Assembly (NCBI GenBank): GCA_949358305.1
Contig: OX442314.1
Location: 27,389,118 to 27,453,117 of the forward strand
Reading direction: 5' to 3'
Length of the DNA stretch: 64,000 nt
Origin: Strigamia acuminata
Taxonomy: Eukaryota > Arthropoda > Chilopoda > Geophilomorpha > Linotaeniidae
In this document: one piece after another, positions 301 through 57,054 of the stretch
Position numbering within the stretch: position 1 is the stretch's first letter
How the letters are laid out: the number at the start of each line of letters is the position of its first letter
The notes under the pieces: model-generated
The model's input: the letters and a program-made list of their open reading frames with translations, nothing else
What the model was told of the DNA's origin: nothing
Database searches by the model: none
Translations under genes and position numbers: made by a program

Positions 301-3300
301 CTATTTTTTCTTTAATTTTAGTAACTTAGAAACCAGCTTTTGCATGAGTTGTGGAATTGCAAGAATAGAAAAGCCAAGCATCAGTGAAAAACAATTTCCA
401 ATGTCACAACACAGTGCAACTCCAGTGTAGGATAATACTTGTGAATACTCTTCAATTATGTTATTCAGTGGACTAAGACCAAGAACTTTGATTGGCCATG
501 CTTCGGGATGTTGAAAGTGAACATATGTGTCAAACACTTGTTCTTCACAAAGTGGATGACAACCGCACTCGTTCATTACATTAGTAGTTAAAGATCTGTT
601 CATGAACAATGCTAATGAAGTTTTAGCATCTGCAATATTGGTACAATCATCTTTTTTGATGTTGACCAAAAATGGTAACCTAAAAATATTTGAATAACAT
701 ATTACAAACTACATAGTAGAACGTTTAGTACAAAGTTCGTAAATATCATTTCTTTAGTTTTTTTTCTATTTTGCTAAACAAAGAAAAACCGAACAAATGA
801 TACGTATGACAAATTTTTGCGTAAATACTAAAAGAAAAAATACTCACTTGCACTGAATTTCGTTATAAATCTTGTTGTCGTAGCAATCGTCTTGGCATCT
901 TTTATGTTTGTCTCGGTCAAGGCAAGGTTGAGATTGTAAATTCAATCGGATGGTCTAAATTAAAACAATTGGTTAAGCAGTTTTGTTTACAATTGTCTGC
1001 AAACATACTTTAAGCATTTTGAATGTGAGAATGGTAAACGTATTTCTTTTAATAGATCTTCTGCTCTTGAGAATTGATGGAATGGATGGGATTGTTGCTT
1101 CGCTTTGTTGAAAGTACACCTGCAGAAAGATAATTATATTTTATCGTAGTATTCAAGATCAGTTTGCTTCTGATGAAATAGCCTTGCAGTTAACTAAAAT
1201 ACAAGATGGTGCAGGTATATTTTATCTCTGTGCATTCTGCTAAGGTCTATAGTAAATTTCGGTGATCCATAATGACGGCGACGTTCGTACGCGCATACAG
1301 ATGTTGCTAATATTCAAATGTGCGACGTCGTGGATACGAATTGTTTCATCATGTAAATCCGCGACTTCGAGGTGCATTTATACGCGCATACGGCATTATT
1401 TAGTTTGATTATGACAGTAAGTTTGTGCAGTTAGCTAAGCGCCTGAGTGCTGTGCAAGATCAACAGTTGATGACAAATGGAATTCATTCATTACTTCGTA
1501 TTCATCTGGCTTACAGATTTGACGCTTGTTTGGTCGAAAACTAAAAAATATTACTGTAGCAACACCAGCATAAGTTAGTGGACCTAAGAAAACAATGTCG
1601 TTTTAGTCGTTCTCTAACTTTTGCACAAATTTTTAATTACGCATATGAGATTGATAGCATGTTCCTGTGTGCATTGGTATTTTGCTCCAAGATACATTCG
1701 ATCTAAATCCTGTGTTCTGATAAGAAAATACTTTTTACCGGTGTATATAATTTTCTTAAGTTTGGTTGAATTTGATTAAAGGCACGAGTTTCATCTAGCA
1801 CTCACATTTTATCTAATGGGTTATGCCTTTTGAGTCAATGGCATTGATCCCTCAATGCTTATTGACACAACAGACATTTTTAAATATCGAACCAAACACT
1901 CACACTTGCAGCAAATTCCATGATGACCTTATCCATTACGGGTGTTTGAAATCTCCATACATCTTCCATCGATGATTTTTTCCCTCTGATAGTCTTATTC
2001 ATTAAATCAATGAAGTGAATTTTACATTCTGGAATGCCTGTAGTGTTGGCATATTGGCTTCTGTAGTGTGTCATTAAGGGTCCGTCCATACATGCAATTA
2101 CGTTGGGCAAATATAATGTGTCATTTTCTTGAATAGTTACTACATATCTTGTCGGTTCGCTCAAATATAATGTGATTCTTTCTTTGCTTACATAAACCGC
2201 TAGTAAGCCGGAAATAAAAACAAGAATACGATACAACGTTCGTTGAAGCTTGGGCGAAGTTTCCATTGTCTTTTTCTTCAAATTTTCCGATTTGATTTGA
2301 TTAACAATTTTGGTTTTTATCTGAGCTTGTAGTCGAACAGGTCTGATATAATTGCAGAAGAGGAGCAAACCAAAGTGTACAATTTCGATTATAGAGAGGA
2401 GAGACAATCCCAAGCAAAATCCTAGGTTGCCACCCAAATCGATCACCAAATTCGGAATTTTGTAAATGTAGATTTCTGTCATTCTGACAAATGTTTCTTC
2501 CATCACTTTAAAATTTATACTTGCTAAATCTTTACTACTGGGTTCATCTTCAAAATCTAACAATGAAAGATGAATAATTTTGTTATAATTACACATCAAA
2601 ATGATAATGTTTGACTTAACTAGTATCGGTGTGCATTACTAGGAGATAAACTCTTGTTTGACAAGGTCTTAAGCAACCACATTCAATTGTTGCCAGCGTG
2701 GATGTTTCGGGTTTATATGAGTTTTCATACACTTGAGCCACGATTGATTTGTTTGCTTCCAAACTGCAGTCTGGCAGATTTTTGTCAGCCATGTAAGGCA
2801 ACCTAAGCTTAAGTTAACAATCTATTAGCATACTAATGAATGATCAATGTGTACTTTAGGTAAGTTTAAACCTGCACTTTGGATCGGTTTTGAGATTTTG
2901 CTTGGTCACACACTCTTTATAACATTCGGTCTGCTTCTCCAGGCTGGGCTCACAGTAGGGGTTTCTTGAAGGCAAAAATTGATACTTGCAGGAAAGAAAT
3001 ACAATTTTACTATTTTAGTTATATGTATTGATTTACAAATCAAATGTATTATAAATGCATAAAGATAACTAATTATGCAACGCGATTCACAGTTGAATAA
3101 GCTGCAAGAAATATACGAGCAAGCAATTATAACTCACTTGACGCAAAATAAATGAAATTTTAATTTCAATTCCCATCTGCGTTGTCATGGTATATCTATA
3201 CGGCATGACACCATCCTTCGGAGACATCTAGTATTAAATTGTGTTATGTATATTATATTACTTTTACACTATACTCTTGTTCGACTCAAATATCAAAAGG

Positions 3301-5892
3301 GTGGCCTTCTCCTATTGGCCGAGCCGTATCACTGGTATAGTGCTCCAAAAATATAGACCCAAACACCAGAAATGCATTACAATGTACAGACATTGTAATC
3401 GATTGCCTACGTAACAGCCAAAATTTCAAAACTGTTTGCTTTCCAGACAAAGCCACCAATAAACAGAACAAACATGAGTTTTACATTTATATGTGCATAA
3501 AACTTTATTTTCTAAATGGAAATAACATTTTATAATAAAATACAATTAAAGTTATATCAATTTAAATGGTCATAATAATCTAAAAAATAAATAAAAATAA
3601 AAACTATTTCTCCTAGTGGTAGTAATACAGACTGGATTTAGGAGTAATGCGGCTCGGCCAATGGGAGAAGGCCACCCTTTTGAGTCGAACAAGAGTATAG
3701 CTGCATTTAAAAAAATCATGTTTCAAATGTTGTAGGTGTTTGTTTTTCTTATTCTTTTTTTGACATCAGAAATCAAAAACACAAACACATACAGTGGTCG
3801 CCAAAGGTTTAGCACCACTACTGTCATTTGCACTATTTAGTGCTTTCAGATACAAAATATGAATTTGGCATTAAATTCTGCTCTGAGAAAATGCTAAAAC
3901 ATTTAAACAAATCATACATTGTAATTAACAATAGTAATTTTTATTGTTTGTATGCAAATTGTTGCTGGACAAACGTTCAGAAAATCATTGTTGATTTGAA
4001 CAACACATTTAAATATTTTGTTTGCTAACCGACTAATAAGCAATCAGCTTATTAGTCGATTCGTCAAATCATGACGAATCGATTTTGACAAAATGAACTG
4101 ACCATAATCATTGGTGCTTTACAGGTCCCATTTTTCTTAAAGACGGCATTAAATTTTCTGTTTAGAGCTAGTTTGTTTATAATATTTTGTTTGCTAACCG
4201 ACTAATAAGCAATCAGCTTATTAGTCGATTCGTCAAATCATGACGAATCGATTTTGACAAAATGAACTGACCATAATCATTGGTGCTTTACAGGTCCCAT
4301 TTTTCTTAAAGACGGCATTAAATTTTCTGTTTAGAGCTAGTTTTACATCTAAAAAAATAGCTTACTCAAAAATTATATAAACAGACAAGATAATTATCGT
4401 ATATTAATTTTACCTGTTGTTATAATTAGTGTACGGCCAAAAACATAATCGTTGTATTTTAATGCAAATGTTTTATCTTGATTTGTATAATTGCCACTTT
4501 TTATCTTAGTGCCAAGTAACACAGTTTTGCCCTTAAAAAAAGTTATTGGCAAGTTATTGGAAACAATATTTGTTAATACGGCTTTCTTAGGTATCCAAAA
4601 GAACAGTATACAGGGTGTCCCAAATGAACGAAGCCAGTCAAGTAACGAAAAGACCATTTGAGTGAGATGAATGAAACGAATGTAGTACTAGTAAACTAAG
4701 TGAGGGCATTTCAAAAATGTGAGACAATTTGACCTCTGACCTTTTCTTCAAAGTCATTCCTACTCTAACTTCTAAACTAAGACTGGTAGAGCAAAATTCT
4801 CAATTGAAAAAAGAAAGAGCACATTCTGTTTAGTAGAAAACTGCTTATCAAATTTACTCCGACACAATAACAGATAAAATTACGAAAAAAATAAATCGTG
4901 AGAAAGTCAAAACATTCCAAGAAAAGTGCTTTATTTTGCTGACATTCTAAGTACTACTTCAAATTACTATGGAGTCATGAATTGTTATTAATTTAACTGA
5001 TATTTTAAATGATATTTCACAAATAAAATTATGAAAAAGTCAAAAAATACAAAAACGAAAACCAAGATCAAGACTATTTCATGATTTATTTTTTTTGTAA
5101 TTTTATCTGTTATTGTGTCGGAGTAAATTTGATGAGTAGTTTCTACTAAACAGAAGGTGCTCTTTCTTTTTTCAATTAAGAATTTGCTCTACCAGTCTTA
5201 GTTTAGAAGTTAGAGTTGGAATGCCCTTGAATAAAAGGTCAGAGATTAAATTTTTTCACATTTTTGAAATGCCCTTAGTTAGTTTACTAGTACTACATTT
5301 GCTTCATTCATCTCACTCAAATGGTCTTTTCGTTATTTGACTGGCTTCGTTCATTTGGGACACCCTGTATATAATTTCTTTTTAAATTGCATAAAGGAAT
5401 AAGGTAACTGGCCTGTTTGATTTTGAGGTGCTGCATATTTTCTGATATATTGGAATGTTCCCACAAGTTTGTATAATTTTCAACCTTGACTTGCTGTGAG
5501 ATGATTCCTCTCACTGGGATCCTGCAAGCTTTCATTAACTCTTGTGCACCATCAATTGTATTAGGTTCTGGTATTTTGTCCCAGTACTTCGACATCAATG
5601 GAGTGTCAAGAGCCACGAGTCTCACTTCAGGGAATCTGTTTTCCTGTATTGGAACAAACTCAATTTCAACTTTGTAATTTCCAGACATGTAGAAGCGAAA
5701 TCTTTCCCAAGTTTGATAGCTGAAGATGCCGAAACAAACGACCAAACCAAGCAACCAAATGAAACGAAGTATTCCAGTGTTCTCGAGAACTTGGTTTATA
5801 AATTGAAAACTATCTTTGCCCGTCAGTGAAGTTTGCATTTCTTGTTGCACATATTGGCGAATACAGTTACGGGTCCGACGAATAAGCAACAT
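301..5892 (-). CDS. Tandem two-domain DEG/ENaC channel, copy G1 (13 exons)
   Basis: Predicted plasma-membrane cation channel subunit, 844 aa when spliced by hand. Coding exons from the 5' end: 5413-5892, 4414-4531, 4272-4348, 3138-3227, 2872-2984, 2621-2802, 1906-2556, 1739-1800, 1641-1716, 1495-1583, 1009-1119, 848-954, 301-679. Phases agree at every junction. Domain A has TM1 at residues 41-60, cysteine-rich exons 5-6 and a TM2 with LGGNLGFCLGLS (GLS filter at 403-405). A basic linker follows, then domain B with TM1 at about 460-480, cysteines in exons 9-13 and TM2 with LGFS at 820-823. The family and two-TM topology are known; the fusion is read directly from exon 7. The upstream ATG used by the paralogues is ATA here, so translation probably starts five codons later. 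Intron 1 has a weak GC donor (GCCAGT), and exon 3 has a downstream duplicate. Ligand and ion selectivity cannot be inferred. Confidence 0.85.
3272..3697. mobile_element. 426-bp Tc1/mariner-type MITE in G1 intron 3
   Basis: Inverted ends of about 45 bp start TACTCTTGTTCGACTCAAA and mirror at 3650-3697, both running into a GGCTCGGCC-type block. The flanks carry a TA duplication (3270-3271, 3698-3699). G5 has the empty site at about 60893-60905, reading through CACTAGGTGCATTC. No transposase is present, so it is non-autonomous. Confidence 0.8.
3790..4016. mobile_element. Decayed Tc1-like terminal fragment
   Basis: CAGTGGTCGCCAAAGGTTTA at about 3792 resembles Tc1-type inverted ends. The same block occurs in the G5 intron at about 60983-61200, so the insertion predates the split of G1 and G5. 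No coding capacity was seen. The family call rests on the terminal motif only. Confidence 0.4.
4012..4349. repeat. 169-bp tandem duplication covering exon 3 of G1
   Basis: Two adjacent copies are offset by 169 bp (about 4012-4180 and 4181-4349). Each includes an exon 3 body and a small palindromic block (AATAAGCAATCAGCTTATT, then GATTCGTC/GACGAATC). Only the right-hand copy (4272-4348) keeps the T-rich tract and AG acceptor; the left copy (body about 4103-4170) begins past the acceptor and is probably not spliced in. Confidence 0.8.
4609..5369. mobile_element. 761-bp foldback Tc1/mariner-type element in G1 intron 1
   Basis: The ends read TACAGGGTGTCCCAAATGAA and its reverse complement, and long arms of about 290 bp pair with few differences (4609-4900 with 5080-5369). 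TA target copies flank it at 4607-4608 and 5370-5371. The uninterrupted sequence is in G5 at about 61655-61672. No transposase ORF is present. Almost the whole transcript could fold on itself. Confidence 0.8.
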
Positions 5893-6784
5893 TCTAGGAG
5901 CCGTTATTTTTCTTCAAATCAACTTTAAAAGCTAAAACTACATAACAGTTTAACGTTGATGGTACTTAAATGATGAAAACTAATTATATTTTAAATTAAC
6001 TTTTGTATTTGGAAATAATTTTAAATTAATTTAATTTCTTTTTCACACGAACTTAAAATGATTATGGTTGTAAAACTCCGCAAGTTAATTTGTTTCCAAT
6101 TTAATGTTTTCTAAGGCAATGACTCTTTTCAATTTGTCAACAGCAATGAAAGGAACTAAAGTCATTAAAGTTTAATGAAATATTGACATTTCAATACTAT
6201 AAGCTGAATTTATGATGGAAGTTTGCGAGATAGGAGTCAGTTCATATCATTTTTTACCAAAAAGTTTTGAAAGTATAAGTAAGTCGCCACGGTCATTTAT
6301 TTTGTCGCGTCCTTTGCAGGTAATGTTAAATAACCGTGGTTTGTTTTACCTGATCCTTTCTACCAAAATAATTATCTACAATATACTAAAAGGAATAAAG
6401 TGTTTGTGACGGGTGCAGTCTTGTCCATAGCAACCTGGGGATTGATTACTATGGGTGGGACTAGACCTCACGAAATAATGGAGACAGTGATTTCGGATTG
6501 TTGGGTTTTGGTCTTTAATCCGTTGTCTAGGGGTCGGAGTTCCTATCACCCCTTAGGGCCACACCCGCAACCGACCCGTCACACCCAGAGTGTTTGCCCG
6601 TGAGTGACGTGGTCTGATAATACTGTTGCATATATGATGTGTGCAACTCTGACTGCAGGAATGCAGTCGTCATGTTTGTCTTCCTATTTGGGCATGAAAG
6701 CCCAAGAGAAAGTAAGACGTGTTATCTGAGTGAGATTTTGGAGTCGATTAGTTTATTTATTCCATTAAGAATGGTTGGTTGCCT
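5893..6784. other. 5' flank of channel G1
   Basis: No gene recognised. The block is conserved upstream of G2 (35075-35950) and G3 (43032-43910), and its first 300 bp upstream of G4. It probably holds the shared promoter, but no motif could be tied to a start site. Short ORFs here are not conserved in frame between copies. Confidence 0.5.
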
Positions 6785-29224: not shown

Positions 29225-32200
29225 TTAGTATTTTTTCTTTAATTTAAGTAACTCAGAAATCAGCTTTTGCAAGAGTTGTGGAATTGCAAGAATAGAAAGG
29301 CCAAGCATCAGTGAAAAACAATTTCCAATGTCACAACACAATGCAACTCCAGTGTAGGATGATACTTGTTTAAACTCTTCAATTATGTTATTCAGTGGAA
29401 TTATTGAAAGAACTTTGATTGGCCATGCATCGGGATGTTGAAAGTAAACATATGTGTCAAACACTTGTTCTTCACAAAGTGGATGACAACCGCACTCTTT
29501 CATTACATTAATAGTTAAAGATCTGTTCATGAACAATGCCAGTGAAGTTTTAGCATCTTCAATATTAGTACAATCATCCTTTTTGATGTTGACCAAAAAT
29601 GGTAACCTGAAAATATTTGAATAACCTATATTATAAACTACATCGTAGAACGTTTAGTACAAAGTTCGAAAGTGTCATTTCTTTGGTTTTTTTTATTTTG
29701 TTGAACAAAGAAAAACCGAACAAATGATACGTATGACAAATTTCTGCATAAATATTAAAAGAAAAAATACTCACTTGCACTGAATTTTATTATAAATCTT
29801 TTTTTCGTAGCAATCTTCTTGGCATCTTGTGTGTTTGTCTCGGTCAAGGCAAGGTTGAGATTGTAAATTCAATCGGATGGTCTAAATTAAAACAATTGGT
29901 TAAGCAGTTTTGTTTACAATTGTCTGCAAACATACTTTAAACATTTTGAATGTGACAACGGTAAACGTTTTTGTTTTAATAGATCTTCTGCTCTTGAGAA
30001 TTGATGGAATGGATGGGATTGTGGCTTCGCTTGGTTGAAAGTACACCTGCGGAAAGAAAAAAACATTTTATCGTAGTACTCAAGATCAGTTTGCTTCTGA
30101 TGAAATAGCCTTGCAGTTAACTAAAATACAAGATGGTGTATGTATACTTTATCTCCGTGCATTCTGCTAAGGTCTATAGTAAATTTCTTACGGCATTATT
30201 TAGTTGTATTATGACAGTAAGTTTGTGCAGTTAGCTAAACGTCTACAGCAGCGGTCGGCAATAGGGGGACCGCGGAAGGTCGAAACTTGGATCGCGGTGA
30301 CGTTTTAGCGACGTTTTTCTTTCGGTTTCTTTGGTTTTTCGGTGTTTTTTTCTTGTTTTTCCTGTTTTTTTCCCGTGTTTTTTAGGTTTAATTGGTATTT
30401 TTTGGGTTGTGTGTGTTTATTGGGGGATTTATTTGGTTTTTAAGTGTTTTTTCCGTTTTCTTAGGTTTTTAGTAAGGCTTTTAAGTGTTTTTTTTTCTAG
30501 ACCGTGATACAAATTTTCAATAGTATCCGGACCCCACTTAAAATTAATTGCTGACCCCTGGCCTACAGTATACGCCAAGTGCAATGCACTTATCTGAGTG
30601 CAAATGACAAATGGAACTTATTCATTACTTCGTACTCATCTGGCTTACAGCTTTGATGCTTGTTTGGTCGAAAACTAAAATATATTGCTGTAACAACACC
30701 TGCATATGTTAGTGGACCTAAGAAAACAATGTTGTTTTAGTAGTCCTATAATGTTTGCACACATTTTTAATTACGCATTTGAGATTGATAGCATGTTCCT
30801 GTGTGCATTGGTATTTTGCTCCAAGATACATTCGATCTGAATCCAAAGTTCTGATAAGAAAATACTTTTACCGTTGTATATAATTTTGTTAAATTTGGTT
30901 GAATTTGATTAAAGGCACGAGTTTCATCTAGCACTCACTTTTTATCTAATAAGTTACATTTATCAAACGCCTTTTGAATCAATGGCTTTGTTCACACAAT
31001 GCTTATCGACCCGTTGACACAACAGACATTTTTAAATATCGGACCAAACACTTACACTTTCAGAAAATTCCATGGCGATCGTATTCATTATGGGTGTTTG
31101 AAATCTCCATACATCTTCCATCGATGATTTTTTCCCTCTGATAGTCTTATTCATTAAATCAATGAAGTGAATTTTACATTCTGGAATGCCTGTAGTGTTG
31201 GCATATTGGTTCCTGTAGTGTGTCATTAAGGGTCCATCCATACATGCAATTACGTTGGGCAAATATAATGTGTCATTTTCTTGAATATTTACTACATATC
31301 TTGTCGGTTCGCTCAAATATAATGTGATTCTTTCTTTGCTCACATAAACCGCTAGTAAGCCGGAAATAAAAACAAGAATACGATACAACGTGCGTTGAAG
31401 CTTGGGCGAAGTTTTCATTGTTTTTTTCGTCAAATTTTCCAATTTGATTTGATTAACAATTTTAGTTTTTATCTGAGCATGTAGTCGAACAGGTCTGATA
31501 TAATTGCAGAAGAGGAGCAAACCAAAGTGTACAATTTCAATTATAGAGAGGAGTGACAATCCCAAGCAAAATCCTAGGTTGCCGCCCAAATCGATGACCA
31601 AATTAGGAATTTTGTAAATGTAGATTTCTGTCATCCACACAGATGTTTCTTGTGACACTTTAAAATTAATACTTGTACGATTTATATTACTGGGTTCATC
31701 TTCAAAATCTAGCAGTTAAAAATAAATAATTTCATGACATTTATGCGTTAAAATGATATTGTTTGACTTAACTAGTATCGGTGTGCACTATTAGGAGATA
31801 AACTCTTGTTTGACAAGGTCTTAAGCAACCACATTCAATTGTTGCCAGCGTGGATGTTTCGGGTATATACGAGTTTTTATACACTTGATCCACGATTGAT
31901 TTGTTTGCTTCTAAACTGCAGTCTGGCAGATTTTTGTCAGCCATGTAAGGCAATCTATCAAGTAAGTTAACCATCTATTAGCATCCTAATGAATGATCAA
32001 TGTTTACGTTAAGTAAGTTTAAACCTGCACTTAGGATTGGTTTTGAGATTTTGCTTGGTCACACAGTCTTTATAACATTCGGTCTGCTTCTTCAGACTGG
32101 GCTCACAGTAGGGGTTTCTTGAAGGCAAAAATTGATACTTGCAGGAAAGAAATACAGTTTTACTATTTTGGTTATACAAGTATGTGTTGATTTATAAATT

Positions 32201-35074
32201 AAATGTATTATAAAAGATTTATAAATCATATGTATTATAAAAGATTTATAAATCATATGTATTATAAAAGATTTATAAATCATATGTATTATAAAAGATT
32301 TATAAATCATATGTATTATAAAAGATTTATAAATCATATGTATTATAAAAGATTTATAAATCATATGTATTATAAAAGATTTATAAATCATATGTATTAT
32401 AAAAGCATAGAGATAACTAATTATTCAATGCGATTCACAGTTGAATAAGCTGCAAGAACTATACAAACAAGCAATTATAACTCACTTGACGCAAAATAAA
32501 TTGAAATTCAGCTTCAATTCCCATCTGTATTGGTATAGTATATCTATACGGCATGACACCATCCTTCATTGACATCTAGCATTAAAATGTGTTATGTATA
32601 TTATTAGCCTTGTGTGCGGTAGCGGTATACCACACCGCGGTAATTTTTTGGGACGCAACACTGCGGTATTCAGCAAAATACCGCAAAACGGTATACCGCA
32701 ATATCGCAAATATCGCAATACTGGATAATACTGCAATACCGCATATACCACAAAAAGCTGCAACAAACTAAATGGCGCTTTAACCAATTGATCTGAAATT
32801 CTATCTAAACGCATAATGCCTTATACCAAAACGGTACATTTTACGGGTCACTACAAAACATGGGGTACACCCCAATTGGGGTACCCCATGGGGTATACCC
32901 CAAAGTCCTAAAAATAAACAAATAATCATAAATGTAATAATTATAATGTAAACATTTTCTTGTTCTCTAAAAAAAAATAAAAATTTCAAATGTTTTTACT
33001 CAAAAAAACGAAAATTTCATTTGTGTTACCGTCTGTCTCACATTTTCCAACTACCCTTCATATAGCTTGAAACCCAGACACAAGTGATCAATAATAATCG
33101 TCCCCATGGCCAATCACATAGCTCCATGCATCTTGGGCTATAATATGGCGCCAAACTCGATTTTTGAACTGTTTAATCCGATGCGTGGAATTGTAGGACA
33201 AGAAAATTTGTTTTTACACGAAAAAGCATGAATTTCTCACCAATAAAATTTATTGACACCTAAAAACTTTGTATTTATACCAAACTAATTTGTTTCCTTC
33301 TGAAATAATTTGTTTTTTCCCGAAATAATTTGTTTTTTCTCAAATAATTTTTATTTACACATTCTGTATTGATATTTCCTCTCATTGTGCACCCCCAGCA
33401 CTCTATTGGAGACCTGCTTGCGGTCTGAGAAAGGCCTGCACGTGTCAACCATCACAAAAATCACAAAAATAAATTTTTTGACTAAAAAATCGATGATTTT
33501 ATTCAACAATAAATCTTTAAAGAACATTACAATTCGATAAAAATGAAGAAAAAACGATAAAAATCGGTTTTATCAATTTTTACCGATTTTTATCGATTTT
33601 TACCGATTTTTATCGATTTTTACTGATTTTTATCGTTTTTTCTCCATTTTTATCGATTTTTTTAAATCGATTTGTAATGTTTTTTAAAGATTTATTGTTG
33701 AATAAAATAATCGATTTTTGAGTCAAATAATCGATTTCTTAGTCAAATAATTGATTTTTTAGTCAAATAATCGATTTTTGAGTCAAAAAATTTATTTTTG
33801 TGATTTGTAAGTCAAAAAATAAATTTCTGTGATTTGTGAGTCAAAAAATTGATTTTTTTGATTTCTAACATGTAATGTCATGTTTTTGTATGTAATTTAA
33901 ATTTTTTTTTTTGTAATTTTCATTTCAATTATTTTACTAATTTTTTTTTATTTATTACACATTCCAGGACTTTGGGGTATACCCCATGGGGTACCCCATT
34001 TGGGGTACACCCCGTGTTTTGCAGTGACCCACATTTTACTTTTATCCTTCCATTGGTTAAAAATACCGGATAAGGCTACTGGTAGGTGCGGGCTATTTTG
34101 TCTAATCAGTTTATTTGACGCCATCTTTATGGCAACGACTATAGCAAGCTGATTTGACGAATCGATTTTGACAAAATAAACTGACCGTAATCATTGGTGC
34201 TTTACAGGTCCCATTTTTCTTAACGACGACATTAAATTTTCTGTTTAGAGCTAGTTTTAAATCTAGAAAAAATAGTTTAGTCAAAAATTATTTAAACAGA
34301 CTAGATGATTATCGTATATTAATTTCACCTGTTATTGTCACAGTCAGTGTACGGCCTACTACATAATCGTTGTATTTTAATGCAATTGTTTTACCCCGAT
34401 TTGTATAATTGCCACTTTTTATCTTAGTGCCAAGTAACACAGTTTTGTCCTAAAAAAAGTTATTGGCAAATTATTGGAAACAATATTTATTAATATGGCT
34501 TTTTTACGTATCCAAAAGAACATACTGTATAGTAAATATAATTTCTTTTTAAATTGCATAAAGGAATAATGTTACTTACCTGTCTAAATTTTATGTGCTG
34601 CAAATTTTCTGAAATGTTGGAATGTTCCCACAAGTGAGAATAATTTTCAACCTTGACTTGCTGTGAGATGATTCCTCTCACTGGGAGCCTGCAATCTCTC
34701 ATTAACTCTTGTGCACCATCAATTGTGTTCGGTTCTGGTATTTTGACCCAGTACTTTGACATCAATGGAGTATCTAGGCCCGTGAGCATAATTTCAGGGA
34801 ATCTGTTTTCCTGTATTGGAACATATTCGATTTCAACTTTGAAAGGTCCAGTCATGTAGAAGCAAAATCTTTCCCAAGTTTGATAACTGAAGATGCCGAA
34901 GCAAACGACCAAACCAAGCAACCAAATGAAACGAAGTATACCAGTGTTCTCGAGAACTTGGTTTATAAATTGAAAACTATCTTTGCCCGTTAGTGAAGTT
35001 TGCATTTTTTGTTGCACATATTGGCGAATACGGTTACGGGTCCGACGAATAAGCAACGCTCTAGGAGCCGTCAT
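29225..35074 (-). CDS. Tandem two-domain DEG/ENaC channel, copy G2 (13 exons)
   Basis: Intact, 851 aa by hand-splicing. Exons from the 5' end: 34580-35074, 34329-34449, 34186-34262, 32486-32575, 32025-32137, 31773-31954, 31058-31708, 30872-30933, 30775-30850, 30629-30717, 29936-30046, 29775-29881, 29225-29606. The start ATG (MTAPRALLIRR) is the full-length one. Intron 1 has a consensus GTAAGT donor. Exon 2 is one codon longer than in G1. Domain A keeps LGGNLGFCLGLS and domain B keeps LGLS where G1 has LGFS. Introns hold an hAT-like MITE, a 27-bp minisatellite, an ACCGC-rich hairpin block and a 1186-bp element. It was duplicated with G3. Confidence 0.87.
30249..30560. mobile_element. hAT-like MITE, 312 bp, G2 intron
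   Basis: Ends CAGCGGTCGGCAAT and ATTGCTGACCCCTG are near-inverted. The 8-bp flanks GTCTACAG (30241-30248) and GCCTACAG (30561-30568) fit a hAT target duplication with one later change. The interior is T/G-rich and without coding potential. The same insertion is in G3 and G4 but not in G1 or G5. Confidence 0.75.
32203..32403. repeat. 27-bp minisatellite in G2 intron 4, seven copies
   Basis: The unit starts ATGTATTATAAAAGATTTAT and ends AAATCAT. G3 has six copies, G4 one, and G1 and G5 none. ORFs made of repeated nine-residue blocks on both strands are by-products. Confidence 0.92.
32600..32760. repeat. ACCGC/GCGGT hairpin-rich block
   Basis: Alternating GCGGTAT and ATACCGC words can fold into many short hairpins. 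Also at 40557-40717 and 49310-49460. Probably a simple-repeat expansion. Confidence 0.6.
32845..34030. mobile_element. 1186-bp Mutator-like non-autonomous element, G2 intron 3
   Basis: Inverted ends of about 66 bp start GGGTCACTACAAAACATGGG and contain repeated GGGGTAYACCCC palindromes. The 9-bp duplication ACATTTTAC flanks it (32836-32844, 34031-34039). G4 shows the empty site at about 49540. A 9-bp duplication is typical of Mutator-like elements; with no transposase the superfamily stays provisional. The inside has ATCGATTTTT-type repeats with inverted sub-arms. Confidence 0.8.
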
Positions 35075-37208: not shown

Positions 37209-40200
37209 TTAGTATTTTTTCTTTAATTTAAGTAACTCAGAAATCAGCTTTTGCAAGAGTTGTGGAATTGCAAGAATAGAAAGGCCAAGCATCAGTGAAA
37301 AACAATTTCCAATGTCACAACACAATGCAACTCCAGTGTAGGATGATACTTGTTTAAACTCTTCAATTATGTTATTCAGTGGAATTATTGAAAGAACTTT
37401 GATTGGCCATGCATCGGGATGTTGAAAGTAAACATATGTGTCAAACACTTGTTCTTCACAAAGTGGATGACAACCGCACTCTTTCATTACATTAATAGTT
37501 AAAGATCTGTTCATGAACAATGCCAGTGAAGTTTTAGCATCTTCAATATTAGTACAATCATCCTTTTTGATGTTGACCAAAAATGGTAACCTGAAAATAT
37601 TTGAATAACCTATATTATAAACTACATCGTAGAACGTTTAGTACAAAGTTCGAAAGTGTCATTTCTTTGGTTTTTTTTATTTTGTTGAACAAAGAAAAAC
37701 CGAACAAATGATACGTATGACAAATTTCTGCATAAATATTAAAAGAAAAAATACTCACTTGCACTGAATTTTATTATAAATCTTTTTTTCGTAGCAATCT
37801 TCTTGGCATCTTGTGTGTTTGTCTCGGTCAAGGCAAGGTTGAGATTGTAAATTCAATCGGATGGTCTAAATTAAAACAATTGGTTAAGCAGTTTTGTTTA
37901 CAATTGTCTGCAAACATACTTTAAACATTTTGAATGTGACAACGGTAAACGTTTTTGTTTTAATAGATCTTCTGCTCTTGAGAATTGATGGAATGGATGG
38001 GATTGTGGCTTCGCTTGGTTGAAAGTACACCTGCGGAAAGAAAAAAACATTTTATCGTAGTACTCAAGATCAGTTTGCTTCTGATGAAATAGCCTTGCAG
38101 TTAACTAAAATACAAGATGGTGTATGTATACTTTATCTCCGTGCATTCTGCTAAGGTCTATAGTAAATTTCTTACGGCATTATTTAGTTGTATTATGACA
38201 GTAAGTTTGTGCAGTTAGCTAAACGTCTACAGCAGCGGTCGGCAATAGGGGGACCGCGGAAGGTCGAAACTTGGATCGCGGTGACGTTTTAGCGACGTTT
38301 TTCTTTCGGTTTCTTTGGTTTTTCGGTGTTTTTTTCTTGTTTTTCCTGTTTTTTTCCCGTGTTTTTTAGGTTTAATTGGTATTTTTTGGGTTGTGTGTGT
38401 TTATTGGGGGATTTATTTGGTTTTTAAGTGTTTTTTCCGTTTTCTTAGGTTTTTAGTAAGGCTTTTAAGTGTTTTTTTTTCTAGACCGTGATACAAATTT
38501 TCAATAGTATCCGGACCCCACTTAAAATTAATTGCTGACCCCTGGCCTACAGTATACGCCAAGTGCAATGCACTTATCTGAGTGCAAATGACAAATGGAA
38601 CTTATTCATTACTTCGTACTCATCTGGCTTACAGCTTTGATGCTTGTTTGGTCGAAAACTAAAATATATTGCTGTAACAACACCTGCATATGTTAGTGGA
38701 CCTAAGAAAACAATGTTGTTTTAGTAGTCCTATAATGTTTGCACACATTTTTAATTACGCATTTGAGATTGATAGCATGTTCCTGTGTGCATTGGTATTT
38801 TGCTCCAAGATACATTCGATCTGAATCCAAAGTTCTGATAAGAAAATACTTTTACCGTTGTATATAATTTTGTTAAATTTGGTTGAATTTGATTAAAGGC
38901 ACGAGTTTCATCTAGCACTCACTTTTTATCTAATAAGTTACATTTATCAAACGCCTTTTGAATCAATGGCTTTGTTCACACAATGCTTATCGACCCGTTG
39001 ACACAACAGACATTTTTAAATATCGGACCAAACACTTACACTTTCAGAAAATTCCATGGCGATCGTATTCATTATGGGTGTTTGAAATCTCCATACATCT
39101 TCCATCGATGATTTTTTCCCTCTGATAGTCTTATTCATTAAATCAATGAAGTGAATTTTACATTCTGGAATGCCTGTAGTGTTGGCATATTGGTTCCTGT
39201 AGTGTGTCATTAAGGGTCCATCCATACATGCAATTACGTTGGGCAAATATAATGTGTCATTTTCTTGAATATTTACTACATATCTTGTCGGTTCGCTCAA
39301 ATATAATGTGATTCTTTCTTTGCTCACATAAACCGCTAGTAAGCCGGAAATAAAAACAAGAATACGATACAACGTGCGTTGAAGCTTGGGCGAAGTTTTC
39401 ATTGTTTTTTTCGTCAAATTTTCCAATTTGATTTGATTAACAATTTTAGTTTTTATCTGAGCATGTAGTCGAACAGGTCTGATATAATTGCAGAAGAGGA
39501 GCAAACCAAAGTGTACAATTTCAATTATAGAGAGGAGTGACAATCCCAAGCAAAATCCTAGGTTGCCGCCCAAATCGATGACCAAATTAGGAATTTTGTA
39601 AATGTAGATTTCTGTCATCCACACAGATGTTTCTTGTGACACTTTAAAATTAATACTTGTACGATTTATATTACTGGGTTCATCTTCAAAATCTAGCAGT
39701 TAAAAATAAATAATTTCATGACATTTATGCGTTAAAATGATATTGTTTGACTTAACTAGTATCGGTGTGCACTATTAGGAGATAAACTCTTGTTTGACAA
39801 GGTCTTAAGCAACCACATTCAATTGTTGCCAGCGTGGATGTTTCGGGTATATACGAGTTTTTATACACTTGATCCACGATTGATTTGTTTGCTTCTAAAC
39901 TGCAGTCTGGCAGATTTTTGTCAGCCATGTAAGGCAATCTATCAAGTAAGTTAACCATCTATTAGCATCCTAATGAATGATCAATGTTTACGTTAAGTAA
40001 GTTTAAACCTGCACTTAGGATTGGTTTTGAGATTTTGCTTGGTCACACAGTCTTTATAACATTCGGTCTGCTTCTTCAGACTGGGCTCACAGTAGGGGTT
40101 TCTTGAAGGCAAAAATTGATACTTGCAGGAAAGAAATACAGTTTTACTATTTTGGTTATACAAGTATGTGTTGATTTATAAATTAAATGTATTATAAAAG

Positions 40201-43031
40201 ATTTATAAATCATATGTATTATAAAAGATTTATAAATCATATGTATTATAAAAGATTTATAAATCATATGTATTATAAAAGATTTATAAATCATATGTAT
40301 TATAAAAGATTTATAAATCATATGTATTATAAAAGATTTATAAATCATATGTATTATAAAAGCATAGAGATAACTAATTATTCAATGCGATTCACAGTTG
40401 AATAAGCTGCAAGAACTATACAAACAAGCAATTATAACTCACTTGACGCAAAATAAATTGAAATTCAGCTTCAATTCCCATCTGTATTGGTATAGTATAT
40501 CTATACGGCATGACACCATCCTTCATTGACATCTAGCATTAAAATGTGTTATGTATATTATTAGCCTTGTGTGCGGTAGCGGTATACCACACCGCGGTAA
40601 TTTTTTGGGACGCAACACTGCGGTATTCAGCAAAATACCGCAAAACGGTATACCGCAATATCGCAAATATCGCAATACTGGATAATACTGCAATACCGCA
40701 TATACCACAAAAAGCTGCAACAAACTAAATGGCGCTTTAACCAATTGATCTGAAATTCTATCTAAACGCATAATGCCTTATACCAAAACGGTACATTTTA
40801 CGGGTCACTACAAAACATGGGGTACACCCCAATTGGGGTACCCCATGGGGTATACCCCAAAGTCCTAAAAATAAACAAATAATCATAAATGTAATAATTA
40901 TAATGTAAACATTTTCTTGTTCTCTAAAAAAAAATAAAAATTTCAAATGTTTTTACTCAAAAAAACGAAAATTTCATTTGTGTTACCGTCTGTCTCACAT
41001 TTTCCAACTACCCTTCATATAGCTTGAAACCCAGACACAAGTGATCAATAATAATCGTCCCCATGGCCAATCACATAGCTCCATGCATCTTGGGCTATAA
41101 TATGGCGCCAAACTCGATTTTTGAACTGTTTAATCCGATGCGTGGAATTGTAGGACAAGAAAATTTGTTTTTACACGAAAAAGCATGAATTTCTCACCAA
41201 TAAAATTTATTGACACCTAAAAACTTTGTATTTATACCAAACTAATTTGTTTCCTTCTGAAATAATTTGTTTTTTCCCGAAATAATTTGTTTTTTCTCAA
41301 ATAATTTTTATTTACACATTCTGTATTGATATTTCCTCTCATTGTGCACCCCCAGCACTCTATTGGAGACCTGCTTGCGGTCTGAGAAAGGCCTGCACGT
41401 GTCAACCATCACAAAAATCACAAAAATAAATTTTTTGACTAAAAAATCGATGATTTTATTCAACAATAAATCTTTAAAGAACATTACAATTCGATAAAAA
41501 TGAAGAAAAAACGATAAAAATCGGTTTTATCAATTTTTACCGATTTTTATCGATTTTTACCGATTTTTATCGATTTTTACTGATTTTTATCGTTTTTTCT
41601 CCATTTTTATCGATTTTTTTAAATCGATTTGTAATGTTTTTTAAAGATTTATTGTTGAATAAAATAATCGATTTTTGAGTCAAATAATCGATTTCTTAGT
41701 CAAATAATTGATTTTTTAGTCAAATAATCGATTTTTGAGTCAAAAAATTTATTTTTGTGATTTGTAAGTCAAAAAATAAATTTCTGTGATTTGTGAGTCA
41801 AAAAATTGATTTTTTTGATTTCTAACATGTAATGTCATGTTTTTGTATGTAATTTAAATTTTTTTTTTTGTAATTTTCATTTCAATTATTTTACTAATTT
41901 TTTTTTATTTATTACACATTCCAGGACTTTGGGGTATACCCCATGGGGTACCCCATTTGGGGTACACCCCGTGTTTTGCAGTGACCCACATTTTACTTTT
42001 ATCCTTCCATTGGTTAAAAATACCGGATAAGGCTACTGGTAGGTGCGGGCTATTTTGTCTAATCAGTTTATTTGACGCCATCTTTATGGCAACGACTATA
42101 GCAAGCTGATTTGACGAATCGATTTTGACAAAATAAACTGACCGTAATCATTGGTGCTTTACAGGTCCCATTTTTCTTAACGACGACATTAAATTTTCTG
42201 TTTAGAGCTAGTTTTAAATCTAGAAAAAATAGTTTAGTCAAAAATTATTTAAACAGACTAGATGATTATCGTATATTAATTTCACCTGTTATTGTCACAG
42301 TCAGTGTACGGCCTACTACATAATCGTTGTATTTTAATGCAATTGTTTTACCCCGATTTGTATAATTGCCACTTTTTATCTTAGTGCCAAGTAACACAGT
42401 TTTGTCCTAAAAAAAGTTATTGGCAAATTATTGGAAACAATATTTATTAATATGGCTTTTTTACGTATCCAAAAGAACATACTGTATAGTAAATATAATT
42501 TCTTTTTAAATTGCATAAAGGAATAATGTTACTTACCTGTCTAAATTTTATGTGCTGCAAATTTTCTGAAATGTTGGAATGTTCCCACAAGTGAGAATAA
42601 TTTTCAACCTTGACTTGCTGTGAGATGATTCCTCTCACTGGGAGCCTGCAATCTCTCATTAACTCTTGTGCACCATCAATTGTGTTCGGTTCTGGTATTT
42701 TGACCCAGTACTTTGACATCAATGGAGTATCTAGGCCCGTGAGCATAATTTCAGGGAATCTGTTTTCCTGTATTGGAACATATTCGATTTCAACTTTGAA
42801 AGGTCCAGTCATGTAGAAGCAAAATCTTTCCCAAGTTTGATAACTGAAGATGCCGAAGCAAACGACCAAACCAAGCAACCAAATGAAACGAAGTATACCA
42901 GTGTTCTCGAGAACTTGGTTTATAAATTGAAAACTATCTTTGCCCGTTAGTGAAGTTTGCATTTTTTGTTGCACATATTGGCGAATACGGTTACGGGTCC
43001 GACGAATAAGCAACGCTCTAGGAGCCGTCAT
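37209..43031 (-). CDS. Tandem two-domain DEG/ENaC channel, copy G3 (13 exons)
   Basis: Its exon translations appear identical to G2. Exons from the 5' end: 42537-43031, 42286-42406, 42143-42219, 40443-40532, 40009-40121, 39757-39938, 39042-39692, 38856-38917, 38759-38834, 38613-38701, 37920-38030, 37759-37865, 37209-37590. Two DEG/ENaC domains are joined through exon 7, as in G1. The near-absence of change, even in introns, means either a very recent duplication or two haplotypes placed in tandem by the assembler. Confidence 0.85.
38233..38544. mobile_element. hAT-like MITE in G3 intron
   Basis: Duplicate of 30249-30560 carried with the segmental duplication, with the same 8-bp flanks. Confidence 0.75.
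40187..40360. repeat. 27-bp minisatellite in G3 intron 4, six copies
   Basis: Same array as 32203-32403 with one fewer unit, which accounts for the 27-bp change in offset between the two segments. Confidence 0.92.
40802..41987. mobile_element. 1186-bp Mutator-like element in G3 intron 3
   Basis: Duplicate of 32845-34030, with the same ends and the same ACATTTTAC flanks. Confidence 0.8.
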
Positions 43032-44677: not shown

Positions 44678-46064
44678 TAATTCATCGATTTCGAATGGAA
44701 TAATGACCGCAAACAGTGAGCACTTACGAATTTATTTATTTTTAAATACAAATTTGCTGACTACAATATTCAAAATAATACAGGGGGGCCATGTTAGCTG
44801 CAAAACGTGTTAAAAGTGGAAAAACATTACACGGATTCATTAGTATGTGCGAATAACTTTGCAGCAAGTGATAAAACATGACCCAATTGGTAGTTTGTGC
44901 ATTACATAAATCATTACACATTCACTCGGCATGCTAATATGGCCAAAGTGAATAATAATGTCCAAAAAACAATAACAAAAACAAGTGTACTTTCTGTGGT
45001 ACGTCCATAAGCTAAGGACATGTGTCTGGAAGGTGTCAGATCTAGCAGTGATGCGTTTAGACCATGTGAGGCTACAAGGTACAGTGTAACTTCGGGGTCC
45101 CACAGGCGAATTTACGGTCTGACGGCCTTCTTAGCAGTCTTTTTCGGTGCCCTTCACACAGATGGTTAGTATTTTTTCTTTAATTTTAATAACTTAGAAA
45201 CCAGCTTTTGCAAGAGTTGTGGAATTGCAAGAATAGAAAAGCCAAGCATCAGTGAAAAACAATTTCCAATGTCACAACACAGTGCAACTTCAGTGTAGGA
45301 TAATACTTGTTTAAACTCTTCAATTATGTTATTCAGTGGAATTATTGAAAGAACTTTGATTGGCCATGCATCGGGATGTTGAAAGTAAACATATGTGTCA
45401 AACACTTGTTCTTCACAAAGTGGATGACAACCGCACTCTTTCATTACATTAATAGTTAAAGATCTGTTCATGAACAATGCCAATGAAGTTTTAGCATCTT
45501 CAATATTAGTACAATCATCCTTTTTGATGTTGACCAAAAATGGTAACCTGAAAATATTTGAATAACACATTACAAACTACATCGTAGAACGTTTAGTACA
45601 AAGTTCGAAAGTGTCATTTCTTTGGGTTTTTTATTTTGTAAAGAAAGAAAAACCACTAAAATGATACGTATGACAAATTTCTGCGTGAATGCTAAAAGAA
45701 AAAATACTCACTTGCACTGAATTTCATTATATATCTTTTTTTCGTAGCAATCGTCTTGGCATCTTTCGTGTTTGTCTCTGTCAAGGCAAGGTTGAGATTG
45801 TAAATTCAATCGGATGGTCTAAATTAAAGCAATTAGTTAAGCAGTTTTGTTTAGAATTGTCTGCAAACATCGTACTTTAAACATTTTGAATGTGAGAATG
45901 GTAAACGTTTTTGTTTTAATAGATCTTCTGCTCTTGAGAATTGATGGAATGGATGGGATTGTCGCTTCGCTTTGTTGAAAGTACACCTGCAGAAAGAATA
46001 ATATAATTTATTGTAGTATTCAAGATCAGTTTGCTTCTGATGAAATAGCCTTGCAGTTAACTAA

Positions 46065-47095
46065 CAAGGGGAGCACATGAATAACACACTCACAGATTGT
46101 TGTCATATTAAACAAGAAGGATTGTTATATCATGCTGAATGAGACCCTAAAGTTATTTCATTCCATAAACAGCCAACAATGCAAACAATGAGCTGAAAGT
46201 TGGCACTATTTTGTCTGTGTATACATCCAATCTGAGCAATCAGGCCTAGTGTATGAATACGATAAACAACAGTTGCTAGGTAAAAAGTAGTTCCAAGATC
46301 CAAGTTGAATTTTATCATTTGATATTCAATGATGTCATTTCATCATTTGAGATTTAATGATGTCATGACATCAGAATTTTGTTTACCAACATGACTGTCT
46401 TCATGAAGACAACAATAGTTTGTAGTGGTGGTCCAGTGGTTAAGGCAATGGACTAGGAATCTTTCTACACAGGTTCAAATCCTGATGTGTTTGAAAATTT
46501 TTACTCCTATTTTTTAAATTTTTTTTGCAGTAATTTTAATGTTTGTAATTTTATGTTTGTTAAAAAATTAAAATTAATTAATTATTAAAGTTTTCTAAAA
46601 ACAAACATAAAATTACAAACATTAAAATTACTGCTAAAAAAAATTAAAAAACAAAAGTAAAAATTTTCACAGACAGCAGGATTTGAACCTGTGTGGAAAG
46701 ATTCCTAGTCCATTGCCTTAACCACTGGACCACCACTACAAACTACTATTGTCTTCATGAAGACAGTCATGTTGGTGAATAAAGTTGTGATGTCATATGT
46801 CATGAGATATCAAATGATGAAATGACCTCATTGAATATCAAATGATAAAATTCAACTTGGATCTTGGAACTACTTTTTACCTAGCAACTGTTGTTTATCG
46901 TATTCATACACTAGGCCTGATTGCTCAGATTGGATGTATACACAGACAAAATAGTGCCAACTTTCAGCTCATTGTTTGCATTGTTGGCTGTTTATGGAAT
47001 GAAATAACTTTAGGGTCTCATTCAGCATGATATAACAATTCTTCTTGTTTAATATGACAACAATCTGTGAGTGTGTTATTCATGTGCTCCCCTTG
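46065..47095. mobile_element. 1031-bp palindromic foldback element with tRNA-Ser-like heads
   Basis: CAAGGGGAGCACATGAATAA at the left is mirrored at the right end, and the two arms of about 510 bp are near-perfect reverse complements around position 46580. Each arm holds a tRNA-like module (46425-46490 plus, 46675-46735 minus) with an A box (GGTCCAGTGGTTAAGGCAATGG) and a B box (GGTTCAAATCC). An identical 62-codon ORF occurs on opposite strands (46130-46318, 46842-47030) purely by symmetry. It sits in G4 intron 10, replacing about 100 bp present in G2. Confidence 0.85.
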
Positions 47096-47108
47096 TAAGC
47101 GTCTACAG

Positions 47109-47426
47109 CAGCGGTCGACAATAGGCGGATGCGGAAGGTCGAAACTTGGACCGCGGTGACGTTTTAGCGACGTTTTTCTTTCGGTTTCTTTGGTTTTTCT
47201 TTTTCGGTGTTTTTTTCTTGTTTTTCCTGTTTTTTTTCCGTGTTTTTTTAGGTTTTATTGGTATTTTTTGGGTTGTGTGTGTTTATTGGGGGATTTTTTG
47301 GTTTTTAAATGTTTTTTCCGTTTTCTTAGGTTTTTAGTAAGGCTTTTAAGTGTTTTTTTTTTCTACACCGGGATAAAAATTTTCAATAGTATCCGGACCC
47401 CACTTAAAATTAATTCCCAACCCCTG
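47109..47426. mobile_element. hAT-like MITE in G4 intron
   Basis: Orthologue of 30249-30560, flanked by GTCTACAG (47101-47108) and GCCTACAG (47427-47434). More diverged than the G2/G3 pair. Confidence 0.72.
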
Positions 47427-50400
47427 GCCTACAGTATATGCCAAGTGCAATGCACTTATCTGAGTGCAAATGACAAATGGAACTTATTCATTACTTCGTA
47501 GTCATCTGGCCTACAGATTTGGCGACTGTTTGGTCGAAAACTAAAATATATTGCTGTAGCAACACCTGCATATGTTAGTGGACCTAAGAAAACAATGTTG
47601 TTTTAGTAGTCCTATAATGTTTGCACACATGTTTAATTACCCATTTGAGATTGATAGCATGTTCCTGTGTGCATTGGTATTTTGCTCCAAGATACATTTG
47701 ATCTGAATCCTAAGTTCTGATAAGAAAATACTTTTACCGGTCTACATAATTTTCTTAAATTTGGTTGAATTTGATTAAAGTCACGAGTTTCATTTAGCAC
47801 TCACATTTTATCTAATAAGTTACATTTATCAAACGCCTTTTGAATCAATGGCTTTGTTTACATAATGCTTATGGACTCATTGACTCAACAGACATTTTTA
47901 AATATCGGACCAAACACTTACACTTTCAGCAAATTCCATGATGACCTTATCCATTACGGGTGTTTGAAATCTCCATATATCTTCCATCGATGATTTTTTC
48001 CCTCCGATAGTCTTATTCATTAAATCAATGAAGTGAATTTTACATTCTGGAATGCCTGTAGTTTTGGCATATTGGCTTCTGTAGTGTGTCATTAAGGGTC
48101 CATCCATACATGCAATGACGTTGGGCAAATATAATGTGTTATTTTCTTGAATATTTACTACATATCTTGTCGGTTCGCTCAAATATAATGCGATTCTTTC
48201 TTTGCTCACATAAACCGCTAGTAAGCCGGAAATAAAAACAAGAATACGATACAAGGTGCGTTGAAGCTTGGGCGAAGTTTTCATTGTCTTTTTCTTCAAA
48301 TTTTCCAATTTGATTTGATTAACAATTTTGGTTTTTATCTGAGCATGTAGTCGAACAGGTCTGATATAATTGCAGAAGAGGAGCAAACCAAAGTGTACAA
48401 TTTCAATTATAGAGAGGAGTGACAATCCCAAGCAAAATCCTAGGTTGCCGCCCAAATCAATCACCAAATTAGGGATTTTGTAAATGTAGATTTCTGTCAT
48501 CCACACAGATGTTTCTTGTGACACTTTAAAATTAATACTTGTACGATTTATATCACTGGGTTCATCTTCAAAATCTAGCAGTTAAAGATAAATAATTTCA
48601 TTATATTTATGCGTTAAAATGATATTGTTTGACGTAACTAGTATCGGTGTGCACTATTAGGAGATAAACTCTTGTTTGACAAGGTCTTAAGCAACCACAT
48701 TCAATTGTTGCCAGCGTGGATGTTTCGGGTTTATACGAGTTTTTGTACACTTGATCCACGATTGATTTGTTTGCTTCTAACTGCAGTCTGGCAGATTTTT
48801 GTCAGCCATGTAAGGCAATCTATCAAGTAAGTTAACCATCTATTAGCATCCTAATGAATGATCAATGTTTACGTTAAGTAAGTTTAAACCTGCACTTAGG
48901 ATTGGCTTTGAGATTTTGCTTGGTCACACAGTTTTTATAACATTCGGTCTGCTTCTTCAGACTGGGCTCACAGTAGGGGTTTCTTGAAGGCAAAAATTGA
49001 TACTTGCAGGAAAGAAATACAGTTTTACTATTTTGGTTATACAAGTATGTGTTGATTTATAAATTAAATGTATTATAAAAGATTTATAAATCATATGTAT
49101 TATAAAAGCATAGAGATAACTAATTATTCAATGCGATTCACAGTTGAATAAGCTGCAAGAACTATACAAACAAGCAATTATAACTCACTTGACGCAAAAT
49201 AAATTGAAATTCAGCTTCAATTCCCATCTGTATTGGCATAGTATATCTATACGGCATGACACCATCCTTCATTGACATCTAGCATTAAATGGTGGTATGT
49301 ATATTATTTGTCTTGTGTGCGGTAGCGGTATACCGCACCGCGGTAATTTTTTGGGACGCAACACTGCGGTATTCAGCAAAATACCGCAAAACGGTATACC
49401 GCAATACCGCAAATACCGCAATACCGGATAATACTACAATACCGCAAATACCACAAAAAGCTGCAACAAACTAAATGGCGCTTTAACCAATTGATCTGAA
49501 ATTCTATCTAAACGCATAATGCCTTATACCAAAACGGGTACATTTTACTTTTATCTTTCCAACGGTTAAAAATACCGGATAAGGCTACCGATAGGTGCAG
49601 GCTATTTTGTCTAATCAGTTTATTTGACGCCATCTTTATGGCAACGACTATAGCAAGCTGATTTGACGAATCGATTTTGACAAAATAAACTGACCGTAAT
49701 CATTGGTGCTTTACAGGTCCCATTTTTCTTAACGACGACATTAAATTTTCTGTTTAGAGCTAGTTTTAAATCTAGAAAAAAAAGTTTAGTCAAAAATTAT
49801 TTAAACAGACTAGATGATTATCGTATATTAATTTCACCTGTTATTGTTACAGTCAGTGTACGGCCTACTACATAATCGTTGTATTTTAATGCAATTGTTT
49901 TACCCCGATTTGTATAATTGCCACTTTTTATCTTAGTGCCAAGTAACACAGTTTTGTCCTAAAAAAAGTTATTGGCAAATTATTGGAAACAATATTTATT
50001 AATATGACTTTTTTACGTATCCAAAAGAACATACTGTATAGTAAATATAATTTCTTTTTAAATTGCATAAAGGAATAAGGTTCCTTACCTGTCTGAATTT
50101 TATGTGCTGCAAATTTTCTGAAATGTTGGAATGTTCCCACAAGTGAGAATAATTTTCAACCTTGACTTGCTGTGAGATGATTCCTCTCACTGGGAGCCTG
50201 CAATCTCTCATTAACCCGCTTGCACCATCAATTGTGTTCGGTTCTGGTATTTTGTCCCAGTACTTTGACATCAATGGAGTATCTAGGCCCATGAGCATAA
50301 CTTCAGGGAATCTGTTTTCCTGTATTGGAACATATTCAATTTCAACTTTGAAAGGTCCAGTCATGTAGAAGCGAAATCTTTCCCAAGTTTGATAACTGAA

Positions 50401-56601: not shown

Positions 56602-57054
56602 CTATTTTTTCTTTACTTTTAGTAACTTCGAAACCAGCTTTTGCAAGAGTTGTGGAATTGCAAGAATAGAAAAGCCAAGCATCAGTGAAAAACAATTTCC
56701 AATGTCACAACACAGTGCAACTCCAGTGTAGGATAATACTTGCTTAAACTCTTCAATTATGTTATTCATTGGAATTATTGAAAGGACTTTGAATGGCCAT
56801 GCTGCTGTGTGTTGAAAGTAAACATATGTGTCAAACACTGGTTCTTCACAAAGTGGATGACAACCACACTCTTTCATTACATTAGTAGTTAAAGATCTGT
56901 TCATGAACAATGCCAATGAAGTTTTAGCGTCTTCAATATTGGTACAATCATTCTTTTTGAGGTTGACCAAAAATGGTAACCTAAAAATATTTGAATAACA
57001 TATATTATAAACTACATCGTAGAACGTTTAGTACAAAGTTCGCGAGTGTCTTTT

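Follow-up and report, generated by a model that had tools for sequence, protein, structure and literature searches.

DEG/ENaC channels are known as assemblies (trimers) of separate subunits with two transmembrane (TM) segments each, and the positions of subunits in their heteromers are usually open. In K2P potassium channels the pore unit is duplicated within one chain, so that two chains bring together the four pore units needed by a potassium channel. Here we describe five gene copies in a 64,000-nucleotide stretch of Strigamia acuminata DNA (the window), which we infer to lie on chromosome 1, in which two DEG/ENaC domains are predicted to share one chain, as the pore units of K2P channels do. 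Unlike in K2P channels, three pore positions cannot be shared out evenly among chains of two DEG/ENaC domains, and the stoichiometry puzzle that a preliminary description of this DNA had raised for a two-domain chain is a genuine one.

The nearest solved channels for both halves of the predicted protein, as the top sequence matches in the PDB, were two centipede channels. Best was BRTNaC1 (broad-range thermal receptor 1; PDB 8YMR and related entries), with E values of 1.2e-14 for the first domain (D1) and 1.7e-19 for the second (D2), and with about 28% identity to D1 and about 25% to D2 in a three-way alignment. BRTNaC1 shares with D1 the pore glycines and the Cys-rich end of the thumb, but differs from the fused genes in its single domain per chain, with three like chains per entry. 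PDPNaC1 of Scolopendra (PDB 9JF7), whose structure likewise has three like chains per entry, was the second-best match of both halves. Its description gives a homotrimer of a one-domain protein of 421 aa encoded in 9 exons, unlike the fused genes, and a working channel that is also without the canonical His-Gly (HG) motif; by spacing, its Asp372, Gly375 and Gly378 map to D0', G3' and G6' of D1 (PMC12714832). Laboratory concatemers of ASIC/ENaC subunits share the head-to-tail join by a cytosolic linker. As reported in PMC4529235, engineered ASIC1a concatemers of two, three or four subunits are functional, head-to-tail dimers with short linkers giving currents, and trimeric ASIC2a/3 concatemers have been reported as well (PMC10329638). 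Those concatemers are engineered, whereas the centipede fusion is genomic and is found in hundreds of genes.

Gene models of the five copies

All five copies were encoded on the minus strand. G1 (301..5907) was modelled with 12 exons, all phases of which close, giving 829 codons and a stop. Its exons e1 to e4 lie at 5413-5907, 4414-4531, 4272-4348 and 3138-3227, e5 to e8 at 2872-2984, 2621-2802, 1904-2556 and 1641-1716, and e9 to e12 at 1495-1583, 1009-1119, 848-954 and 301-679; the last of these (301..679) holds the end of the D2 thumb, TM2 (DIGNCFSLMLGFS) and the stop. The 77-nt exon 3 was located by alignment of the gene copies, and the frame of exon 8 was fixed by the motif TGTCYQS together with splice phases. 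Reading frames were intact in G2 (29225..35074, exon 7 at 31056-31708), G3 (37209..43031, exon 7 at 39040-39692) and G5 (56602..62199, exon 7 at 59534-60186), with predicted lengths of 831 aa for G2 and G3 and 829 aa for G5. G4 (45166..50583) had an open exon 7 (47922-48574) and a 1-nt frameshift in exon 6, which measured 181 nt against the 182 expected; in G1 the ancestral ATG was gone and the next in-frame Met was codon 6. Decay is thereby seen in G1 and G4. The preliminary description had given 13 exons, a protein of about 845 aa and an exon 7 of 651 nt, figures that the models replace with 12 exons, 829-831 codons and, in all five copies, 653 nt; the end of exon 7 was set 2 nt further on, as required by the splice-donor consensus (GTGAGT/GTAAGT) and by the phase of exon 8.

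The copies differed in their introns and surroundings. The donor of intron 1 was GC in G5 (GCAAGT, 61704, in a GC-AG intron) and in G1 (GCCAGT, 5412, weak), and GT in G2 to G4. Intron 1 of G1 was 881 nt long, against 109-130 nt in the other copies, and contained at 4612-5370 an insertion with inverted ends that looks like a DNA transposon. The coding sequences of G2 and G3 were identical, and the stretches 29092-32149 and 32500-36499 were the same, introns too, as stretches lying 7,984 and 7,957 bases further right, the identical parts being 3,058 and at least 4,000 bases long; intron 4 differed by 27 nt. Either these genes duplicated very recently or the assembly contains one of them twice. 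Intron 4 of both genes carried a 27-nt minisatellite (32135-32569 and 40119-40526), seen as 300-nt families shifted by 27. Between G1 and G2 lay retrotransposon pieces on the minus strand (17222-22909 and 22849-24840) and on the plus strand (8936-10312 and 25918-26943), which matched reverse transcriptase, RNase H, integrase or gag.

One open exon joins the two domains

Exon 7 of G1 (1904..2556, minus strand) was delimited by its open frame and splice phases. In transcript order it runs through TM2 of D1 with the pore motif DLGGNLGFCLGLS..E (2354..2440), a stop-free basic linker of 38 residues (2240..2353), TM1 of D2 (2174..2239) and the beginning of the extracellular part of D2, the palm (1904..2173). 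The order noticed earlier, from D1 TM2 through a basic linker to D2 TM1 in one open frame, held in five of the five window copies. The other two frames of the exon contained 11-20 stops (counted in G1, G2, G4 and G5; the exon 7 protein of G3 is the same as that of G2), and none of 20,000 shuffles of G1 exon 7 was open in any frame. The 38-codon linker by itself was open in 5% of shuffles, so its openness alone is weak evidence. Read in frame from D1 TM2, each of the five copies meets its first stop 3-7 codons beyond exon 7; with none before the exon ends, a plain D1 protein is unavailable from this exon. Intron 6 measured 64 nt in each copy, which leaves scant room for the promoter of a second gene. 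The absence of AATAAA and ATTAAA from exon 7 was dropped as evidence, as none of the five copies showed either within 300-400 nt after its own stop.

Against the Pfam model PF00858 (ASC), for which two hits in one product had been foreseen, the full predicted G5 protein scored 97.3 bits in two stretches, and its halves alone scored 67.6 (D1) and 40.9 bits (D2), the curated cut-off being 23.6. The four TM segments, placed by hydropathy only, had peaks of 2.14, 2.20, 1.51 and 1.70; the value for D2 TM1 (1.51) falls below the cut of 1.6, and so does that of BRTNaC1 TM1 (1.59). The two halves held 13 and 15 Cys, and each is predicted to comprise two TM segments around a Cys-rich extracellular part, as a DEG/ENaC domain requires. 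With two domains in one frame, the DEG/ENaC rule of one domain per polypeptide is broken. Direct reading of the window copies found no His-Gly motif before TM1 in either half. When a protein database was searched with the full model, none of 7,575 candidates scored, and animal proteins may fall outside that database; no relatives turned up when viral contigs were scanned with exon 7.

Fusion exons across the genome

The tandem four-TM reading was borne out at gene level and extends far beyond the window. Across the genome searched (237,517,015 bases in 157 contigs), the union of four exon queries contained at least 390 distinct fusion exons, at least 375 of which were stop-free in every reported match. 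Counted rows were alignments spanning TM2 and the next TM1, and rows within 800 bases were merged; per query, 149 of 150, 115 of 141, 134 of 150 listed (from 151 matches) and 141 of 148 rows were kept. The total is a lower bound, because 277 of the 390 turned up with just one of the queries, and some equal copies among these exons may be assembly duplicates. At least 385 were situated on eight large contigs, and 5 on unplaced contigs of small size. Among the matches listed, identity to the window exon went down to 23%. Fusion exons at C6:2863922, C6:2938247 and C3:11014368, on two contigs, scored equally in three exon searches and are perhaps recent interchromosomal copies or assembly duplicates.

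Loci drawn from the exon-search lists and read directly (L061-L065, L079, L080) had the fusion exon in seven of seven cases. In the genome search with PF00858, 93 of 2,095 candidates scored, all 93 above the cut-off. Ten loci from this list were read directly: five (L070-L074) had the end of D1, TM2, linker and TM1 in one frame, and of the other five, L066, L067 and probably L069 were one-domain genes, while L068 and L075 were first exons. One-domain and fused genes coexist in this genome. All eight distant exons tested with Pfam scored for ASC, four of them with two separate stretches. Linkers were 29-58 residues long with medians of 10 K/R and 2 D/E (40 of 42 loci, window copies among the 42, L043 and L047 being left out; the L062 value of 56 is likely too high, a later hydrophobic stretch having been taken as TM1), a charge that fits the cytosolic side. 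Three-domain genes were considered and rejected: the smallest of 377 neighbour spacings were 4.3 and 4.8 kb, and both of these pairs were separate two-domain genes, in which a fused exon was followed by a D2 end with its stop, a new first exon and the next fused exon.

L070-L072 (C3:1.7-4.8 Mb) formed a separate family of fused exons with a longer linker. This linker holds, in frame, the segment that precedes TM1 of D2 (SGLQYIL in L070 and L071, TGLKYIL in L072), which we take to sit roughly at the position of the HG motif in other channels. The C3 family may stem from another fusion or have branched off early.

The pores of the two halves differ

Every D1 read (window copies and 12 loci) had G3', G6', G10' and S12'. 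Window D2 kept G10' and the GxS, and had Asn at 3' and Ser at 6', the places of Gly375 and Gly378 in PDPNaC1. Ten D2 ends were read (window, L061-L065, L076, L078, L079 and L080); D0' and G10' were present in all ten, and position 12' was Ser in nine and Thr in L063. G3' was lost in nine of the ten (Asn in six, Ser in three), L063 having Gly, and G6' was lost in four. No D2 end was found behind L073 in the 3 kb fetched (L077). As a control we used 27 stop-ended ends from the Pfam list, 25 of which kept G3' and were separated by more than 130 kb from every fusion exon listed; the two without it, L010 and L025, shared the strand of a listed fusion exon and lay 1.5 and 1.9 kb downstream of it. 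According to the account of PDPNaC1 in PMC12714832, Gly375 (the G3' place) is one of two constrictions of the closed gate, and mutation at Gly378 (the G6' place) alters selectivity. With D0', G10' and S/T12' kept but G3' lost, the D2 ends suggest that packing of D2 TM2 into a pore persists, with a changed gate residue.

Selection and origin of the fusion

Over the whole frame dN was below dS in all four pairs tested, among them G1 and G5 (dN 0.049, dS 0.101, one-sided p 6.5e-05), G1 and G2 (dN 0.065, dS 0.119, p 1.4e-04) and G2 and G4 (p 0.0067). When the halves were taken separately, dN was significantly below dS at 0.05 in four of six tests, domain 1 of G1-G5 (p 0.14) and domain 2 of G1-G2 (p 0.10) being without significance; the tests point to some constraint on both halves. 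A selection test on the linker alone was dropped, with too few changes.

The phases of the 12-exon gene form the series 0,1,0,0,2,1,0,1,0,0,2, in which introns 1-5 of D1 and 7-11 of D2 have the common phases 0,1,0,0,2 at alignment columns 0-15 apart. Intron 6 had no counterpart in D2, and in the distant fused loci that were read the end of D1 and TM2 stood in one open frame without it. This structure, with intron phases common to both halves, fits an origin in which two tandem copies of a one-domain gene became fused, the final exon of the upstream copy running in frame into the opening exon of the downstream one. The ancestor would have been a one-domain centipede channel gene like those of BRTNaC1 and PDPNaC1. 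That the fused form has spread to hundreds of genes is visible in the sequences themselves, as are the fusion, the common phases and the unlike pores.

In a tree of 48 end sequences, before which L010 and L025 had been relabelled D2 because of their position and three rows added, D1 rows made one group (79/87) and D2 rows another (54/21, weak), and the three labels needed two changes, the minimum possible. In an earlier end tree D1 had grouped at 89/89 and D2 had needed two changes, with L003 among the D2 rows. L014-L016 (no readable end), L030 (short) and the window copies except G5 were dropped before the trees. D1 and D2 as one clade were not rejected (p-AU 0.29). A poorly resolved TM1 tree of 22 rows set D2 of the C3 family apart from the other D2 rows which, together with the weak D2 group, makes more than one fusion event possible; a single origin is favoured rather than demonstrated. 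L003 (C9:11.547 Mb) is a stop-ended end with a canonical pore, more than 1 Mb from any listed fusion exon. L006 and L023 (C6:3.525 Mb) are stop-ended genes that grouped with BRTNaC1 (98/95) and are candidates for its counterparts in this genome.

How the channel may be assembled

It is very probable, on the evidence of frame and exon structure, that each gene encodes one fused two-domain polypeptide, in which D1 and D2 would be joined by a basic, presumably cytosolic linker to give a chain with four TM segments. Two-domain protein predictions can, in general, be annotation errors, a point that counts for two adjacent genes having been falsely joined by assembly or gene model; here, however, the join sits within one exon, not between exons, and it recurs in five window copies, of which four have different sequences, and across the genome in at least 390 exons, so that we give such an artefact hardly any weight. 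Improbable, though less extremely so, is a chain cleaved in its linker, or a D2 made from its own start, with the halves serving as ordinary two-TM subunits. The linker is indeed basic (9 K/R against 2 D/E in G5), and D2 begins with an internal Met whose context is good (ACAATGG in G1 and G5, ACAATGA in G2 and G4), which would make a separate D2 transcript possible. An internal start cannot yield a D1-only protein, however, exon 7 being free of in-frame stops in five copies, and cleavage is hard to match with a linker whose length and charge are similar across other families (40 of 42 loci) and which in the C3 family includes the D2 pre-TM1 segment in the same frame.

For an uncleaved chain, we propose that the pore remains a trimer of DEG/ENaC domains and that one chain would fill two adjacent positions, D1 with a canonical pore and D2 with an altered lower-gate residue at 3', the third position being filled by a one-domain subunit of the same genome. 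Both halves are placed in a pore because D2, with its gate glycine changed, keeps the aspartate and the GxS belt, which in our view require pore packing. This 2+1 assembly is put forward tentatively, its chances being somewhat short of even. Three fused chains might instead build a trimeric D1 pore together with a second pore of D2, a double-barrelled hexamer, or with a D2 ring that is silent or regulatory. Such a hexamer would agree with the difference between D1 and D2 pores, seen in almost every locus that was read; with 29-58 residues (40 of 42 loci) the linkers could bridge two trimers, and a partner subunit would be unnecessary. We found no precedent for it, though, its packing would be constrained by three tethers joining two trimers, and one-domain genes are on hand as partners, all of which leaves it unlikely. 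Slightly less likely still are two fused chains, with three of the four domains forming the pore and one outside, or with a tetrameric pore using all four. PMC4529235 reports that over-long ASIC1a concatemers give channels, considers the option that only three subunits are used and, on the strength of crosslinking, concludes that surface ASIC1a is tetrameric; if an ASIC1a-like tetramer applied here, two fused chains would suffice. Solved DEG/ENaC relatives show three like chains per entry, however, and a spare domain in hundreds of genes would be wasteful; some constraint is seen on both halves. Taken as a whole, an account that combines fusion, spread, a trimeric pore with neighbouring halves, a one-domain third subunit and a sensory repertoire is probably the best explanation. 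Against it count the Gly at 3' in D2 of L063, the D2 end missing from the 3 kb behind L073, the half-by-half tests that fell short of significance, the weak D2 group and the decay of G1 and G4.

Implications for centipede channels

In the open-access full-text literature, as judged by titles, abstract openings and selected passages, we found no natural tandem DEG/ENaC, and a study of membrane proteomes (PMC5620054) gave no match for channel words. On their sequences we class the fused genes as a new variant within the known DEG/ENaC channel family, on an unexpected scale. For the congener Strigamia maritima, PMC4244043 gives 77 gustatory receptor genes, including 17 apparent pseudogenes, and 69 ionotropic receptor genes, including 15 IGluR, counts that the at least 390 fusion exons of S. 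acuminata exceed. The words ENaC, degenerin, pickpocket, amiloride and sodium channel are all absent from the main text of that paper, and much centipede sensory biology may therefore have been overlooked. That the family is a sensory receptor repertoire is, in our estimate, an evenly balanced proposition, since gene number, tandem arrays and moderate constraint resemble those of chemosensory families, an argument by analogy only. More speculative, and somewhat doubtful, is the full picture of a natural-concatemer superfamily of several hundred sensory receptors, in which D1 (canonical) and D2 (altered at the gate) would take adjacent pore positions, a one-domain subunit would be recruited and the gene itself, instead of random assembly, would set both the composition and the order of the heteromer. 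Gene annotators may mistakenly split two-domain genes of this kind, and a natural tandem subunit makes both the order and the stoichiometry of DEG/ENaC channels testable.
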